From Algibacter luteus (GTDB lineage Bacteria; Bacteroidota; Bacteroidia; Flavobacteriales; Flavobacteriaceae), in contig NZ_FQYK01000001.1 of the NCBI RefSeq assembly GCF_900141715.1, positions 434,001 through 498,000 of the forward strand: a stretch of 64,000 nt of DNA, read 5' to 3'. Below the pieces are notes generated by a model that was given only the letters and a program-made list of their open reading frames with translations, ran no database searches and had not been told where the DNA came from. Numbering within the stretch: position 1 is the stretch's first letter; each line of letters starts with the position of its first letter. Below are positions 26,866 through 54,960 of this stretch, piece after piece. Made by a program: the position numbers and the translations under genes.

Positions 26866-26896
26866 TTGTTTTATTAACTTTATTTTATGATTTTTG
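26866..26896 (+). promoter_or_regulatory. Candidate promoter of the SusCD operon
   Basis: TTG (26866-26868) is followed after 20 nt by GATTTTTG (26889-26896), a one-mismatch fit to TAnnTTTG. It places the transcript start about 20 bp before the ATG at 26924 and overlaps the rejected upstream TTG start. Confidence 0.35.
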
Positions 26897-26923
26897 GCAT
26901 TGACTAATTCAAATAATTATAAA

Positions 26924-29900
26924 ATGAAAACAAAGTTTAGTGGAATTCTAACGCTATTACTAGCGTTTGTTGTGCAACTAACGTTTGCACAAGAAAAGAC
27001 AATTTCAGGTACTGTATCAGATGGATCTGGTTTACCGTTACCGGGAGCAACTGTCTTAGTAAAAGGTACTACTTCTGGTACATCAACAGATTTTGATGGT
27101 AAGTATACATTAAAAGCCAATACTGGGAGTACTCTGGTATTCAGTTTTGTGGGATATACTACCAAAGAAGTTGCAGTAGGTGCCTCAAACACAATTAACG
27201 TTACTTTAAATGAAGATGCCCAAGCATTAGAAGAGGTAGTAGTAACTGCCTTAGGTATAAAGCGAGATGAAAAAGCTTTAGGGTATTCTGTTCAAGGAAT
27301 TAAAGGTGATGGCTTAACCGAAGCAAGAGAAAGTAACATATCAAATGCTTTAAGTGGTAAAATTGCCGGTGTTCAAGTAACAGGAACCTCTGGTAGTGTT
27401 GGTGCTTCATCAAGAATTGTACTTAGGGGTAACTCTTCTATTACTGGTAACAACGAGCCGCTTTACGTAGTTGATGGTGTTCCTATCGATAACAGAAGTT
27501 TTGGTAACGCTGGTTCTGGTGGTGGAGTTGATTTACCAAATGGTGCTGCCGACATTAATCCAGACGACATTGAATCTGTTACTGTACTTAAAGGACCTAA
27601 TGCAGCTGCATTATATGGTTTACGTGCAGGTAATGGTGTAATTGTTATTACTACTAAAAGAGGAAATGGCGCGAAAAAATTTGGCGTATCTGTTAATACA
27701 AACGTAACATTCTCTAATCCTTTACTTTTACCTAGCTACCAAAATTCTTATGGACAAGGTGGTGATCCTACTTACTTCGAATTTGTTGATGGAGCAAGTG
27801 GTGGATCTGGTGATGGTGTAGATGAGAGTTGGGGACCACCTTTAGATGTTGGTCTTGAGTTTATCCAATGGAATTCACAATTAAACGGTGGAATCCCTTT
27901 ACCATGGAGATCTTACCCTGATAACGTTAAAAATTTCTTAGACACAGGAGTTAATATTTCTAATAACGTTTCATTTACTAATAATAATTTCAGATTATCT
28001 ATTGGTAATACAGATGAAAAAGGTATGGTTCCGAATACAGAACTTAAAAAAGTTACTGTAGGTTTAAGTGGATCTTTAGAAATTGGCGATCGCATGACAG
28101 TTGGAATGTCATTAAACTATTTTAATACTGATAGTGACAATTTACCAATCTCTGGATATAACAACGAAAATCCATTCCAACAATTTATTTGGTCTGCAAG
28201 ACAAGTTGATTTCCAAGAATTAAGAAACTGGAGAGATTTTCCTTTAGCTCCAGATGGAACTGCAGCAGCAGGAACGCCTTTAAACTGGAACCACAACTTC
28301 CAAAACAATCCATACTGGGTTCTTGAAACTAACAGAAATACTTTAGAAAAAGATCGTATCGTTGGAAACGTAGATGTATCTTACCAATTAACTGACTGGT
28401 TGTCATTTAATCAGAAATTAGGAATTGACTCTTACAGCCAACTTGAAACTCAAAGACAAGCCGTAGGAAGTAACAATGCTCAAAATGGTAGTTATTTTGA
28501 AATTCAAAGACGTTTTGAAGAGGTAAATGCAACATCTATTTTATCTGCAAATCAACCTATTAGTGAAGATATTGGTTTTTCTGCAAGTATTGGTTTTCAA
28601 CACATGAATAGACAATACAATTCTACTTCTGGATTCCTTCCAGGATTAGAGTTACCGAATTTATATAATCTTTCAAACTTACAAACAGGAGCAACTGCCG
28701 TATTAGGTAATCTTGAAAGAAACCAACAGATTAATAGTGTGTTCGGATACGGACAATTTTCTTTCAAAGAAATGATATTTGTTGATTTTACAGCGAGACA
28801 AGATTGGGCTAGTATTTTACCAGTTAAAAACAACTCATTCTTCTATCCTTCTGTAGCTGGTTCTATTTTATTATCAGAAATGTTTGATTTACAATCTGCA
28901 AAAATAGATTACTTAAAATTAAGAGGTGGTTGGTCTCAAGTAGGTAGTACAGGTGCTTTAGCTCCTTATAACATTATTTCTACTTTTGGATTAACTAATA
29001 CTGGTTTTGGTAACCAAGGATTCGTTCCTAACACGCAATTTAACCCTGAGTTAAAAGCTGAAACGGTAACTGGAATTGAGTTTGGTATTGATGCAAAATT
29101 ATTCTCAAACAGACTTCGTTTAAGTGCTACTTACTACGATCAGCAATCTGAGGATTTATTAGTTCCTATTCAAGTATCTTCGGCTACAGGTTCTACTTCA
29201 TCTTGGGATAACATTGCCGACATGAGTAACAAAGGTATCGAGCTTCAATTAGGAGGTACAATTATTGAATCTGAAGATTTCAGTTTTGATATTGATTTAA
29301 ACTTTGCGCAAAACGAAAACGAAGTTGTATCTTTAGGAGAATTAGATAGTTATGTACTTGGTGGACAATGGGGTGTTACACTTCAAGCAAGACCAGGTTT
29401 ACCTTATGGTGTAATAGTTGGTCGTGATTTTGAAAGAACTTCTGATGGTCAAGTTATTTATGAAGCTGGACTTCCTAAAATTGACGAATCACAACAAGTA
29501 CTTGGAGATATCGCGCCAGACTGGACAGGAGGTGCTAACTTCTCACTTAGATATAAAAACTTAAGCTTTTCAACGCTTATTGATGCTAAAATTGGTGGAG
29601 ATGTGCACAGTATGACATACGCATGGGGTAGATTTGCTGGTACTTTAGAAGAAACTTTAGTTGGCCGTGAAACAGGTTTAGTTGGAGATGGTGTAAGAGA
29701 AGATGGAAACGGAGGATATGTTCCTAACGACGTTGTTGTAGGCGCACAATCATTCAACCAAGCATCTTATAGTAACAGTATAGAATCAAGTTCAGTATTT
29801 GATGCTAGTTATGTTAAACTAAGACAAATAACTTTAGGTTATAGCGTACCTTCGAAAATGCTAAAGAATTCACCTTTTGAAGCAGTTAAATTTTCAATTG

Positions 29901-30049
29901 TAGGTAGAAACTTAGCACTTCTTTATAAGAAAGCGCCACATATTGATCCTGAAACAGGATTTAGTAGTGCAAACGGAGAACAAGGTCAAGAGTTTGGTCA
30001 ATACCCATCTGCAAGAACCGTTGGTTTTAACATAAACTTAAAATTCTAA
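26924..30049 (+). CDS. SusC/RagA-family TonB-linked outer membrane protein
   Basis: This 1041-residue TonB-dependent transporter forms the barrel of a SusCD nutrient importer. I place the start at the ATG at 26924, because MKTKFSGILTLLLAFVVQLTFAQ is a clean signal peptide; ten extra upstream codons would begin with TTG inside the promoter. A CarboxypepD_reg-like domain follows (about 24-100, ISGTVSDGSGLPLPGATVLV). Next come EEVVVTALG, and the plug with SNALSGKIAGVQVTG, VLRGNSSITGNNEPLYVVDGVPID. The barrel ends GFNINLKF. It is followed 7 bp later by its SusD partner. The ligand cannot be read from sequence; the nearby secreted protease hints at peptides. Confidence 0.93.
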   Translation: MKTKFSGILTLLLAFVVQLTFAQEKTISGTVSDGSGLPLPGATVLVKGTTSGTSTDFDGKYTLKANTGSTLVFSFVGYTTKEVAVGASNTINVTLNEDAQALEEVVVTALGIKRDEKALGYSVQGIKGDGLTEARESNISNALSGKIAGVQVTGTSGSVGASSRIVLRGNSSITGNNEPLYVVDGVPIDNRSFGNAGSGGGVDLPNGAADINPDDIESVTVLKGPNAAALYGLRAGNGVIVITTKRGNGAKKFGVSVNTNVTFSNPLLLPSYQNSYGQGGDPTYFEFVDGASGGSGDGVDESWGPPLDVGLEFIQWNSQLNGGIPLPWRSYPDNVKNFLDTGVNISNNVSFTNNNFRLSIGNTDEKGMVPNTELKKVTVGLSGSLEIGDRMTVGMSLNYFNTDSDNLPISGYNNENPFQQFIWSARQVDFQELRNWRDFPLAPDGTAAAGTPLNWNHNFQNNPYWVLETNRNTLEKDRIVGNVDVSYQLTDWLSFNQKLGIDSYSQLETQRQAVGSNNAQNGSYFEIQRRFEEVNATSILSANQPISEDIGFSASIGFQHMNRQYNSTSGFLPGLELPNLYNLSNLQTGATAVLGNLERNQQINSVFGYGQFSFKEMIFVDFTARQDWASILPVKNNSFFYPSVAGSILLSEMFDLQSAKIDYLKLRGGWSQVGSTGALAPYNIISTFGLTNTGFGNQGFVPNTQFNPELKAETVTGIEFGIDAKLFSNRLRLSATYYDQQSEDLLVPIQVSSATGSTSSWDNIADMSNKGIELQLGGTIIESEDFSFDIDLNFAQNENEVVSLGELDSYVLGGQWGVTLQARPGLPYGVIVGRDFERTSDGQVIYEAGLPKIDESQQVLGDIAPDWTGGANFSLRYKNLSFSTLIDAKIGGDVHSMTYAWGRFAGTLEETLVGRETGLVGDGVREDGNGGYVPNDVVVGAQSFNQASYSNSIESSSVFDASYVKLRQITLGYSVPSKMLKNSPFEAVKFSIVGRNLALLYKKAPHIDPETGFSSANGEQGQEFGQYPSARTVGFNINLKF

Positions 30050-49900: not shown

Positions 49901-52900
49901 TAGGTTCTGCAGCTAAAAATGTGAAGGTTACCCTTACCATTGAAAAAGATAAACAAATTATAAAAACCGAAGTGATTTCGCTAAATGCAAATAAAAAAAC
50001 CATTTCTATTCCTGTATCACAAAATGATTTAGGCGGATTTGTAGTGCATTATAGTTTGGCAGCATTTAATAGTTTTTTATCAGGGTCAGAAAACATTTCA
50101 GTGCCTTATCCTTCCACAGAACTGGATATTGAAATTAATACCTTCAGAGATAAATTACAACCAGGAATCGATGAAACTTGGAGCTTCAAAATTAAAGGTC
50201 CGAAAGGTGATAAAGTAAGTGCTGAGTTATTAGCAAGTATGTACGATGCTTCCTTAGATCAGTTCAAACCGCATGCTTGGAATTTTAACCCTGTCCAAAT
50301 GCCTAATTATTATGGCATAAGCAACAGACGAGCAAACAACAGTTTTGGTACACAAAATTTTAGAGTCTATCAAGACCGTTTTATTCCGAATTATTCCCAT
50401 CAAACATACGACCAATTGAATTGGTTTGGGTTTAGTTTTGGGTACAACAATGACTTAAGAATCAGAGGGAATAAGAGTGTTTCCAGGGCGCTAGAAGGTC
50501 GAGTTGCGGGTGTTCAAGTTGTTGAAAATGATATGGAAGTTGAAGAATCTGTTGCATTCATGAAAGTTAGCGACGATGCCGATTTAGAAGAAGTGGTAGT
50601 AACAGGATTCGCTCCAAAAATGGAAAGTACAGATAAACAAAACTTAGAACAAGAAAGCTTCGAAAACATTGGTATTCGCAAAAACCTGCAAGAAACAGCT
50701 TTTTTCTTTCCGAAATTACAAACGGATAAAGATGGCAATGTAAGTTTTAGTTTTACAACACCTGAGGCTTTAACACAATGGAAATTACAACTTTTAGCCC
50801 ACACTAAAAATTTAGAATGTGCCACCAAAACCTTAACTACGGTCACGCAAAAAGAATTGATGGTAATACCAAATGCACCGCGTTTTTTACGTGAAGGCGA
50901 TAACATAACCATCAGTACAAAAATTGCAAACCTTACTGATAAAACACTTTCTGGTCTAGCAAAACTCATTTTAACAGATGCCATATCAGGAAATGATATT
51001 ACAGATAAGTTAATCAATACTTCCCTCTCGGAGAATCAAGACAAGGCTTCTTTTACCGTTGACGCTAAAGGAAATACACAAGTGTCGTGGCGCTTGTCTA
51101 TTCCAAATAATGTGGATGCTATTCAATATAAAATAGTAGCAAAATCTGAAAGTTTTAGTGATGGTGAGCAAAATGCTTTACCTGTTTTAAGTAACCGTAT
51201 GTTGGTTACCGAAACGCTACCTATGTGGGTTAGAAGCAACGAAACTAGAACTTTCGTTTTAGATAAATTGAGAACAAATACCTCAACCACACTCAAAAAT
51301 CATAAGTTAACTTTAGAAATAACTTCAAATCCGGCGTGGTATGCAGTTCAGGCCCTTCCCTATTTAATGGAATATCCTTACGACTGTAATGAGCAAACTT
51401 TTTCTAGATATTACTCCAATGCTTTGGCGAGCCACATTGCAAACTCAAACCCGCGAATTCAAGAGGTTTTTAATCAATGGCGAAATACCGATGCATTACT
51501 TTCTAACTTAGAAAAGAACCAAGAATTAAAGTCTATTTTAATTCAAGAAACTCCGTGGTTACGTGATGCGCAAAGTGAAACTGAACAAAAAAAGCGTATA
51601 GCTCTCTTATTCGATTTGAATAAAATGAATAATGAGTTACAGTCTGCACTCAATAAATTAAAAGCAAATCAAATGCCTTCTGGTGCTTGGGCGTGGTTTA
51701 ACGGTGGTTACGAAAACCGATACATTACCCAACACATTATTGCTGGATTTGGACACTTGAAACAGCTCGATGTTCTTCAGAATGATAACGCAGAATCTAT
51801 TATTCAAAAAGCCATCAATTATTTAGATGATGAATTTATCAAAGCGTATAAAAACATCAGAAAGTATAATAATGATGTTGATATGGATAAAGACCATTTA
51901 AGCCATACGCAATTGCATTATTTATATATGCGAAGCTTCTTTCCAGAGATTAAAAAATCGAAAGAAGTTGAAAAAATTAGCGATTATTACCAAACTCAAA
52001 TTAACAAGTATTGGTTATCGCGACCGTTATATTCTAAAGGATTAATGACCTTAGTTTCATATAGAAATAACGAAACAAAAACGGTTTCTAAAATATTAAA
52101 ATCGCTAAAAGAAACGAGTATAACTTCTGATGAACTAGGCATGTACTGGAAAGCCAACACAAATTCATGGTATTGGTACCAAGCCCCAATTGAAACACAA
52201 GCTCTTTTAATTGAAGCATTCTCTGAAACTGGACATGTTATTCATAACGAAACTAAGAATCTAACAGATATTGATAACTTAAAAATTTGGTTGCTTAAAA
52301 ACAAACAAACTAATAGATGGAAAACGACTAAAGCAACCACCGAAGCCGTTTATGCGTTATTACTTCAAGGTAGCGAATGGTTGTCTGTAACCGATATGGT
52401 TGATGTCGTTTTAGGCGGACAAAAAATAGAGCCTTCAAAATTAGAAGCTGTAAAAGTTGAGGCCGGAACAGGATATTATAAAACAGCTTGGAGTGCTTCA
52501 GAAATTAAACCTAATATGGCTGAAGTAACTATTTCTAAAACTGGAAAGGGTATTGCTTGGGGAAGTTTATACTGGCAATATTTTGAAGATCTAGACCAAA
52601 TTACTTCTGCTGAAACACCGCTTAAATTAAAGAAGAAACTATTTCTTAAAACAAATTCGGATACTGGTGAAGAAATTTCAGAAATTAACGAAGAAACACC
52701 ACTTCAGGTTGGCGATTTGGTTAGGGTTAGAATTGAATTGAGAAGCGATAGAAATATGGAATTTATCCATATGAAAGATATGCGCGCCTCAGGTTTAGAA
52801 CCTGTAAATGTATTAAGCACATACAAATGGCAAGATGGTTTAGGGTATTATGAAAGTACTAAAGATGCTTCCACCAATTTCTTTTTTGACAATTTACCAA

Positions 52901-53069: not shown

Positions 53070-53570
53070 TTGTCATTATTGAAAAATATAACGAAATATA
53101 AAATCACCATACTGTTATTGGTATTACTACCTGTGTTTTTAGGATGCAAGAATAGCAAGCAAAGCTTCGAGAATCAGACTGAAATAGAAAGCACACCAAA
53201 AATTTTATTTCTAAATTATGTTATTGAAAAAACTCTTGATAATAAAAGGAAAATTGAGTTTATCAATAAGAAAATAGTAGATGGTAAATTAAAAAATATA
53301 GCCTTCGAACCTATTGGAAATGCGGTTGATGGGGATCTTATTTTTTCGGAATTAGATAGCAAGCTAAAAACCATAAATAAAATTCTAATTAAGAATCCTT
53401 TGGTGCAAACCATTGAATATGTTGACGATGCAAAACAATTTCAAACAAAAACACTAGACCTAGATAAATCCCAATTTTCTATAAGGTTACAACTAAAAAA
53501 CGCTACTAAATACATTACAATTAGTAACTTTGCTGAAAACGAGCCCCTTATCAAAACTAAAATTAACTAG
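53070..53570 (+). CDS. Small lipoprotein of unknown function
   Basis: I do not recognise this 166-residue protein. I use a TTG start at 53070, since no ATG is near and the reading gives a good lipoprotein signal (hydrophobic 12-25, then GCKNSKQ with Cys27). The body is Lys/Ile-rich with KKIVDGKLKNIAFEP and a beta-rich C-terminal half. The gene begins 32 bp after the macroglobulin gene and ends 1 bp before the M64 peptidase gene, so the three are probably one operon. A partner role to the macroglobulin is inferred from position. Confidence 0.65.
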   Translation: MSLLKNITKYKITILLLVLLPVFLGCKNSKQSFENQTEIESTPKILFLNYVIEKTLDNKRKIEFINKKIVDGKLKNIAFEPIGNAVDGDLIFSELDSKLKTINKILIKNPLVQTIEYVDDAKQFQTKTLDLDKSQFSIRLQLKNATKYITISNFAENEPLIKTKIN

Positions 53571-53571
53571 T

Positions 53572-54960
53572 ATGAAATTGGTTTTATGCTTTTTATTACT
53601 CGCAATTACCCTACAAATTCCTGCACAAACATTTGATGTTGAAGCAATAAAACTTGAAGGCGCTAACGACAAGCGCATCAATCTTGTTTTTATGGGCGAT
53701 GGCTATACGGCTTTCGAATTAGACCAGTTTATAACCGATGCAACTAATTTCTCTAGTAGTTTATTTGGCCAAAGTCCGTTTACCGAATACGCAGCATACT
53801 TTAATGTCTATGCAATAAAAGTGATTTCTAACGAAAGTGGAACCGACCATCCAGGAACTGCAACAGACGTTACGGAACCCGTAATTGACGTAAAATTTGT
53901 AGATAATTATTTTAATACGTCTTTTGATACAGCAAATATTCACAGATTACTTTATACTTATGATTCTGCAACCGTTTATGATGTGTTAGCAGATAATTTT
54001 CCAGAATACGACCAGCCTGTTATATTGGTGAATACCTCCGAATATGGTGGCGCTGGCGGACCATATGCAACCTCATCGACAGGCACAAGCGCTGATGAAA
54101 TTGTAATACATGAGTTAGGACACTCACTTTTTGATTTGAAAGATGAGTATTATCCTGGAGATGCTTTAGCAGGAGAAGCCATAAATATGACTCAAGAAAC
54201 CAATACGAGCTTGGTTAAATGGAAAAACTGGATAGGAACTAGTGGTGTTGGCATTTATCCGTATGGCACTTCAGGAAACGCAGCAACTTGGAACAGACCT
54301 CACCAAAACTGTAAAATGCGCTATTTAGGCGTTCCGTTTTGCTCTGTATGTAAGGAAGGGATTGTTGAAAAAATTCATAGTTTAATATCACCCATTGATG
54401 CCTACACACCAAATAATACAACGGTTGATGAACCAACCTTTCCATTAGATTTTCAATTAGATTTGATTAAACCTATTCCAAATACCTTAGAAAGCGAATG
54501 GACCTTAAATACAGTAAGTTTTGCTAGTAATGTAGATGAAGTATCTGTACTTGAAACCGATTTGGTAGAAGGCGCTAATACGCTAACAGCTGTAATACAT
54601 GATAACACCCCATTTTTAAGAGTAGATAATCATGAAAGTGTGCATATTCATACCGTAACCTGGACTATAAATTATTCATCATTAGGAATAAATGATATTG
54701 AAAGTGAACTAAACAACTATACGATTTCCATGTATCCGAATCCAACAAATAACATTTTAATTGTGACGTTGGAAAGTAACTCTTCTTCTAATTTAAAAAT
54801 TGAAATTATGAGTTTGGATGGAAAAAAAGTAAAGTCTACAAGTATTTCAAATTATGAAAATACACCAATTGATATTAGTCATTTTAGTGAAGGTGTTTAT
54901 GTTTCTAATTTCTATTCTGGAAATATTTTAATTGCGAGTAAAAGATTGGTTAAGAATTAA
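53572..54960 (+). CDS. Secreted M64-family metallopeptidase with T9SS sorting domain
   Basis: This 462-residue zinc peptidase resembles the IgA-peptidase (M64) family. I place the start at the ATG at 53572; fourteen more upstream codons would overlap the previous gene and spoil the signal peptide MKLVLCFLLLAITLQIPAQ. The segment INLVFMGDGYTAFELDQF opens the M64 domain. The metal site is HELGH at 180-184, followed by FDLKDEYY. The C-terminal 75 residues (TISMYPNPTNNILIV to ASKRLVKN) are a type A T9SS signal. Its stop codon overlaps the DUF4136 gene's stop in a shared TTAA. Confidence 0.88.
   Translation: MKLVLCFLLLAITLQIPAQTFDVEAIKLEGANDKRINLVFMGDGYTAFELDQFITDATNFSSSLFGQSPFTEYAAYFNVYAIKVISNESGTDHPGTATDVTEPVIDVKFVDNYFNTSFDTANIHRLLYTYDSATVYDVLADNFPEYDQPVILVNTSEYGGAGGPYATSSTGTSADEIVIHELGHSLFDLKDEYYPGDALAGEAINMTQETNTSLVKWKNWIGTSGVGIYPYGTSGNAATWNRPHQNCKMRYLGVPFCSVCKEGIVEKIHSLISPIDAYTPNNTTVDEPTFPLDFQLDLIKPIPNTLESEWTLNTVSFASNVDEVSVLETDLVEGANTLTAVIHDNTPFLRVDNHESVHIHTVTWTINYSSLGINDIESELNNYTISMYPNPTNNILIVTLESNSSSNLKIEIMSLDGKKVKSTSISNYENTPIDISHFSEGVYVSNFYSGNILIASKRLVKN

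Follow-up and report, generated by a model that had tools for sequence, protein, structure and literature searches.

Receptor-derived pieces and a conserved TonB box in the bait region of a flavobacterial alpha-2-macroglobulin

The macroglobulin locus

The window, a 64,000-nucleotide stretch of the Algibacter luteus genome, encodes a type I bacterial alpha-2-macroglobulin and, upstream of it, a SusC/RagA receptor that we used for comparison (Table 1). The MG2, A2M_BRD, A2M, and C-terminal MG domains of the macroglobulin are all present above Pfam cut-offs. Judged by eye, the protein begins with a signal peptide, from which it is probably periplasmic, and no lipobox is seen at its N terminus. 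Within the class, 147 of 247 genomes have a macroglobulin match, and the CXEQ thioester motif is retained in nearly all orthologues. The pattern finds no match in four of them (L002, L094, L015, and L018), in which the thioester may thus be missing, and reads DNNEQ in one other. Separately, a single TAA breaks the macroglobulin frame of L004 (G024:C2:2654740-2660795) near residue 79.

Gene order around the macroglobulin is conserved, the neighbors being TPR, Mur ligase-like, M64-like, DUF4136-like, and ObgE genes, and these conserved neighbors yield no functional link. Downstream of the macroglobulin, positions 53530 to 54960 encode a secreted protein with an HELGH motif that resembles M64 IgA-type peptidases; an M64-like gene of similar kind adjoins 17 of 80 macroglobulin orthologues. 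An open reading frame on the opposite strand (50514 to 51017) was dismissed as a shadow of the macroglobulin coding frame. According to PMC5764988, known type I macroglobulin genes form an operon with PBP1c; no PBP1c gene was seen in the macroglobulin flanks examined, and we do not regard this operon as defining the type I protein family.

Table 1. Features of the macroglobulin and of the receptor used for comparison (positions in the window)
Feature	Positions	Strand	Basis
Type I bacterial alpha-2-macroglobulin, 2030 aa	46945..53037	+	Pfam MG2, A2M_BRD, A2M, bMG10 above cut-offs
Split MG domain with bait loop, counterpart of ECAM MG8 (aa 1056-1304)	50110..50856	+	AF2 model aligned to ECAM 4rtd
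Bait region (aa 1132-1248), predicted disordered	50338..50688	+	pLDDT <50, model residues 271-387
Plug remnant "C," LRIRGNKSVS (aa 1171-1180)	50455..50484	+	Matrix score 13.4
Plug remnant "B," ALEGRVAGVQVV (aa 1182-1193)	50488..50523	+	Matrix score 29.8
TonB box LEEVVV (aa 1214-1219)	50584..50601	+	Same form as SusC TonB box VDEVVV
Thioester motif CNEQ (aa 1481-1484)	51385..51396	+	CXEQ pattern
SusC/RagA receptor, comparison	26894..30049	+	TIGR04056 664 bits, Plug 62.7 bits

Receptor landmarks in reversed order

The preliminary description of this DNA reported three TonB-plug landmarks in the macroglobulin, in the opposite order to those of the SusC in the same window, and both the motifs and their positions were confirmed at exact open reading frame coordinates. 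LRIRGNKSVS comes first, followed by SRALEGRVAGVQVVE (aa 1180-1194; 50482 to 50526) and DLEEVVVTGF (aa 1213-1222; 50581 to 50610), whereas the SusC has LEEVVVTALG, then SNALSGKIAGVQVTG, and then VLRGNSSIT. Lettering the landmarks by their canonical order A-B-C (A, the TonB box; B, ALxGRVAGVQV; C, IRIRG), the macroglobulin reads C-B-A. We scored the landmarks with matrices built from 13 other SusC plugs, leaving out the window's own SusC; of 20,000 shuffles of the window linker, 9 reached the observed score for the TonB box, none for ALxGRVAGVQV, and 24 for IRIRG. The segment has no match to Pfam Plug (PF07715), and, when searched alone, it returns a weak match to TIGR04056 (E 0.0054).

The predicted bait region

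The motifs fall between the Pfam domains A2M_BRD (968-1095) and A2M (1251-1336). In an AlphaFold2 model of residues 862 to 1345 built from 59 homologues, the MG domains are folded, but confidence drops below a pLDDT of 50 in the stretch between them that carries the motifs (to about 26 to 37 across the motifs themselves). The folded part aligns to Escherichia coli ECAM (4rtd) with a Z of 10.2 and an rmsd of 2.9 over 118 residues, model residues 195 to 443 corresponding to ECAM 855 to 1020. This span includes the ECAM bait region, in which residues 923 to 942 are disordered and lack density (PMC4498604), and the motif segment is therefore assigned, by predicted fold and domain order, to the macroglobulin bait region. 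In sequence searches, no solved structure aligned across the bait part. Among orthologues, the linker varies in length from 114 to 300 aa.

Receptor modules across orthologues

We delimited 86 unique linkers among the orthologous loci and scored each for receptor modules at thresholds passed by 1% of shuffles. Module A (LDEVVVTGYG) was found in 45 of the 86 linkers, B (ALxGRVAGVQV) in 28, and C (IRIRGxxS) in 21, against an expectation of about 0.9 each, and modules D (PLYVVDG) and E (AIYGSRGANGV) in 7 apiece; among 1,203 control stretches taken elsewhere in the same proteins, the corresponding counts were A 8, B 2, C 0, D 12, and E 2. Taken alone, the core of the TonB box (LDEVVV) was recognized in 47 of the 86 flavobacterial linkers (shuffle mean, 0.35; controls, 2 of 1,024), leaving 39 without a recognizable one. 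A survey that went beyond the family added 60 linkers, in which A, B, and C were found 8, 6, and 6 times, with 0.6 expected.

Some orthologue bait loops hold a whole receptor N terminus (NTE, TonB box, and Plug) in the normal order, with CarbopepD_reg_2 scoring up to 79 bits and Plug scoring 59.4, 56.6, 51.7, 40.1, and 33.5 bits against a cut-off of 23.9. PF07715 thus exceeds its cut-off at this same place in L013/L024, L056, L025, L220, and L230; whole-genome searches also gave Plug matches over the cut-off for G002 and G014, the NTE being found in G002 as well. In its model, the L024 insert adopts an NTE fold like that of the SusC BT3090 (9hfj; Z 12.1, rmsd 2.2 over 79 of 80 residues), with a second folded patch at the position of the plug, although overall confidence in this model is low (pTM 0.28). 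By these comparisons, the pieces derive from TonB-dependent transporters, and the bait region very probably descends from captured N-terminal modules (NTE, TonB box, and plug) of such transporters. The lineage of the window has no NTE, and all that is left of the plug is two drifting scraps, which look like decaying remnants.

The suggestion that the segment is a degenerate or permuted plug accordingly holds in part: it appears to be receptor-derived, and its plug part is both degenerate and permuted, but DLEEVVVTG is the TonB box and does not belong to the plug fold. Disorder, variability among homologues, and lack of a plug-profile match had been named as evidence against the suggestion; the window segment is predicted to be disordered, is variable, and lacks a PF07715 match, yet orthologue inserts score well above the cut-off. 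The segment is best described as a bait loop of receptor origin that has kept its TonB box rather than as a plug domain. Its location in a bait region and the normally ordered NTE-TonB box-Plug runs of orthologues go beyond the preliminary description.

Permutation and repeated capture

Short linkers commonly place the TonB box last, in the orders BA (11 linkers, of which L106 is doubtful), CBA (4), CA (2), and BCA (1); AB occurs once. The C-B-A loops of the window's clade align collinearly, so that the reversed order noted at the outset was inherited within the clade and did not arise anew in this genome. Two linkers (L040 and L095) carry an additional B ahead of an A-B or an A-C-D-E run, an arrangement suggesting that part of the module was duplicated and that loss came later. 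An "A-like" stretch in L204 (ELKEVEMV) was rejected as a permuted box and is more likely the strand before GVPAxYGD of another receptor type.

Pieces of this other receptor type, recognizable by RGARSDxTxYFIDGVxV, occur in the linkers L199, L203, L204, L205, and L215. They are matched by an open reading frame of 1,253 residues in G233, which has the matching N-terminal domain plus RGSRSDATSYYVDGMKV...GGVPAWYGDATGGV, and by one of 1,262 residues in G091; we take these receptors to be Oar-type. A single capture of all NTE copies was rejected by tree comparison (p-AU 0.0016, from about 100 alignment columns and with a long L213 branch). Together, the Oar-type pieces and the NTE tree suggest that receptor modules were captured repeatedly. 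No recent DNA donor was found in the genome, in which the best non-self match covers 28 query bases (89% identity, E 0.019).

Selection on the TonB box

In 19 linkers from the window's clade, aligned by anchoring on the motif, pN/pS is 0.20 for LEEVVV but 0.68 and 0.80 for plug scraps B and C and 0.78 to 0.80 for the spacers; synonymous sites are saturated (pS of about 0.7), which makes these ratios rough but leaves the ranking by pN unaffected. When the six-codon stretches of the bait loop are ranked in this way, the TonB box is the lowest of 61 in this clade (pN of 0.141 versus a median of 0.417) and the lowest of 62 in a second clade, Maribacter/Zobellia/Arenibacter (0.272 versus 0.534); in Winogradskyella, the box is not constrained. 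The stretch concerned comprises only 6 codons. The constraint lies exactly on the TonB-binding hexamer and spares its flanks. The TonB box therefore appears to be kept by selection and to be the sole constrained piece of the motif segment. Conservation across homologues, which had been proposed as the mark of a functional insertion, thus extends to the TonB box, whereas the plug pieces and spacers drift.

Other carriers without a barrel

Similar inserts occur in other proteins. In a set of ten DUF4139 (mucoidy inhibitor A-like) proteins taken from nine relatives, four (L270, L271, L274, and L276) carry an NTE, a TonB box, and plug pieces, and L274 and L276 retain most of a plug. L279 has an NTE-like domain, a receptor-like box, and an Oar-type piece, and L273 and L278 have Oar-type plug pieces. 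The inserts of all seven lie at one internal place. A YfbK-type VWA protein (L280) starts with an NTE, followed by the TonB-box-like LEEVVTIGYG and an IRGLSS piece.

M56 peptidases were considered as a further carrier and rejected: some have late plug pieces (PLYIIDG and YGDKGKNGV), but there is a single TonB-box-like match (LDEVAV in L285). These late pieces lie near the C terminus in L286, L289, and L290 and in L296/L303, from this genome and relatives. In the window's genome, an M56 open reading frame of 548 aa (C5:633296-634426) matches TonB_C as well.

Discussion

The macroglobulin of A. luteus resembles E. coli ECAM/YfhM and Salmonella SaA2M in its MG2, A2M_BRD, A2M, and bMG10 domains, its CXEQ thioester, and its disordered bait loop in a split MG8, but it is nearly 400 residues longer, has no visible lipobox, and carries receptor pieces in the loop. 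Pseudomonas aeruginosa MagD, a type II protein, also represents a periplasmic bacterial macroglobulin in a larger envelope assembly; it differs in lacking the thioester and in belonging to a six-gene mag operon, with no link to TonB mentioned in the accessible text (PMC5764988). With the N terminus of SusC/RagA (NTE PF13715, TonB box, and Plug PF07715), the window protein shares the LEEVVV, ALxGRVAGVQV, and IRIRG landmarks but not the barrel, the NTE, a complete plug, or the order of the pieces, although several orthologues keep the complete module. PorE provides a precedent for an NTE-type domain in a nonreceptor envelope protein, where it has been proposed to hint at force transfer by a TonB-like protein (PMC12204202); the macroglobulin, in contrast, retains the TonB box itself, within the bait loop of a protease trap. 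In the literature within reach of our search, no paper links a macroglobulin to a plug domain in Bacteroidetes or to a TonB-dependent receptor in flavobacteria, and a receptor-derived bait loop with a TonB box is apparently undescribed there.

In Bt1763, mutation proved VDEVVV to be the TonB box of SusC. It lies there just after the NTE, which this protein requires for growth but whose role is unknown (PMC7782687). The LEEVVV of the macroglobulin matches the consensus hexamer of this box, and the window's genome encodes TonB. We tentatively favor the reading, to which we give somewhat less than an even chance, that the receptor-derived bait loop retains a TonB-docking peptide, which would let TonB hold the trap, or exert a pull on it, at sites of transport. 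The periplasmic C-terminal domain of TonB would bind the exposed LEEVVV as it binds the SusC TonB box, thereby holding the trap, or pulling on it, beside open TonB-dependent transporters, which would be the likeliest entry into the periplasm for foreign proteases. A protease that cuts the loop would trigger a conformational change, upon which the CNEQ thioester would capture it, as in ECAM; the same cut would also release the trap from TonB. Two observations speak against this reading: 39 of the 86 orthologues show no recognizable TonB box, and the box is unconstrained in Winogradskyella. The earlier idea of a linker that docks to TonB thus survives as the best functional reading we can infer, with the constraint on the TonB box behind it and none on the plug pieces.

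That the inserts are merely tolerated, with a disordered loop accepting in-frame insertions, duplications, and deletions of common receptor repeats and the box constraint arising by chance or repeated copying, is unlikely. Few coding repeats are commoner in these genomes than receptor N termini (Plug has 34 to 60 matches in each), and the variable loop length, the patchy content, the drift of scraps B and C, the many orthologues without a TonB box, and the failure of the macroglobulin NTE copies to form one clade would all be expected of functionless scraps. It is harder to see why debris should change least at the TonB box in two clades while the surroundings drift, or why the box should outlast module E, the longer and more informative end of the plug (45 versus 7 of 86 linkers); recent copying, for its part, is not seen, there being no DNA donor in the genome.

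We judge it improbable that the loop is instead a decoy, imitating the exposed receptor hinge (NTE-TonB box-plug) as the natural cutting site of proteases that enter the periplasm, such that a receptor-attacking protease springs the trap with TonB uninvolved. The motifs do sit exactly in the bait region, which is meant for cutting (PMC4498604 and PMC5764988), and two receptor types served as sources in different lineages. Selection on the TonB box could equally serve protease cleavage, the subsites of a protease accounting for the constraint. However, that constraint lies on the TonB-binding hexamer and not on its flanks, and the folded whole NTE and plug of some orthologues would make poor bait. 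Furthermore, the same inserts occur in DUF4139 and VWA proteins, none of which is known to trap proteases, so TonB docking fits these carriers better than does bait imitation. Finally, chance or convergence of short motifs in a low-constraint loop, for which the lack of a Pfam Plug match and the permuted order of the window copy might be cited, is very hard to sustain against the shuffle tests and is contradicted by orthologues that hold a complete NTE and Plug in the corresponding position.

Returning to TonB docking, a broader and more doubtful version is that NTE/TonB-box cassettes serve in Bacteroidota as portable couplers that would connect nontransport envelope proteins, among them macroglobulin traps, DUF4139 proteins, and YfbK-type VWA proteins, to the TonB motor, the cut in the macroglobulin bait both springing and freeing the trap. 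Even without a function, the capture, permutation, and erosion of receptor modules in a bait region constitute a clear natural record. Should TonB dock on the macroglobulin, transporters would not be the only clients of the Ton system, and an immune-like bacterial protein would be steered to the entry ports of attackers. The role of the NTE becomes testable in soluble, barrel-less proteins. Overall, the findings suggest that a macroglobulin defense protein is tied to the energized import machinery.
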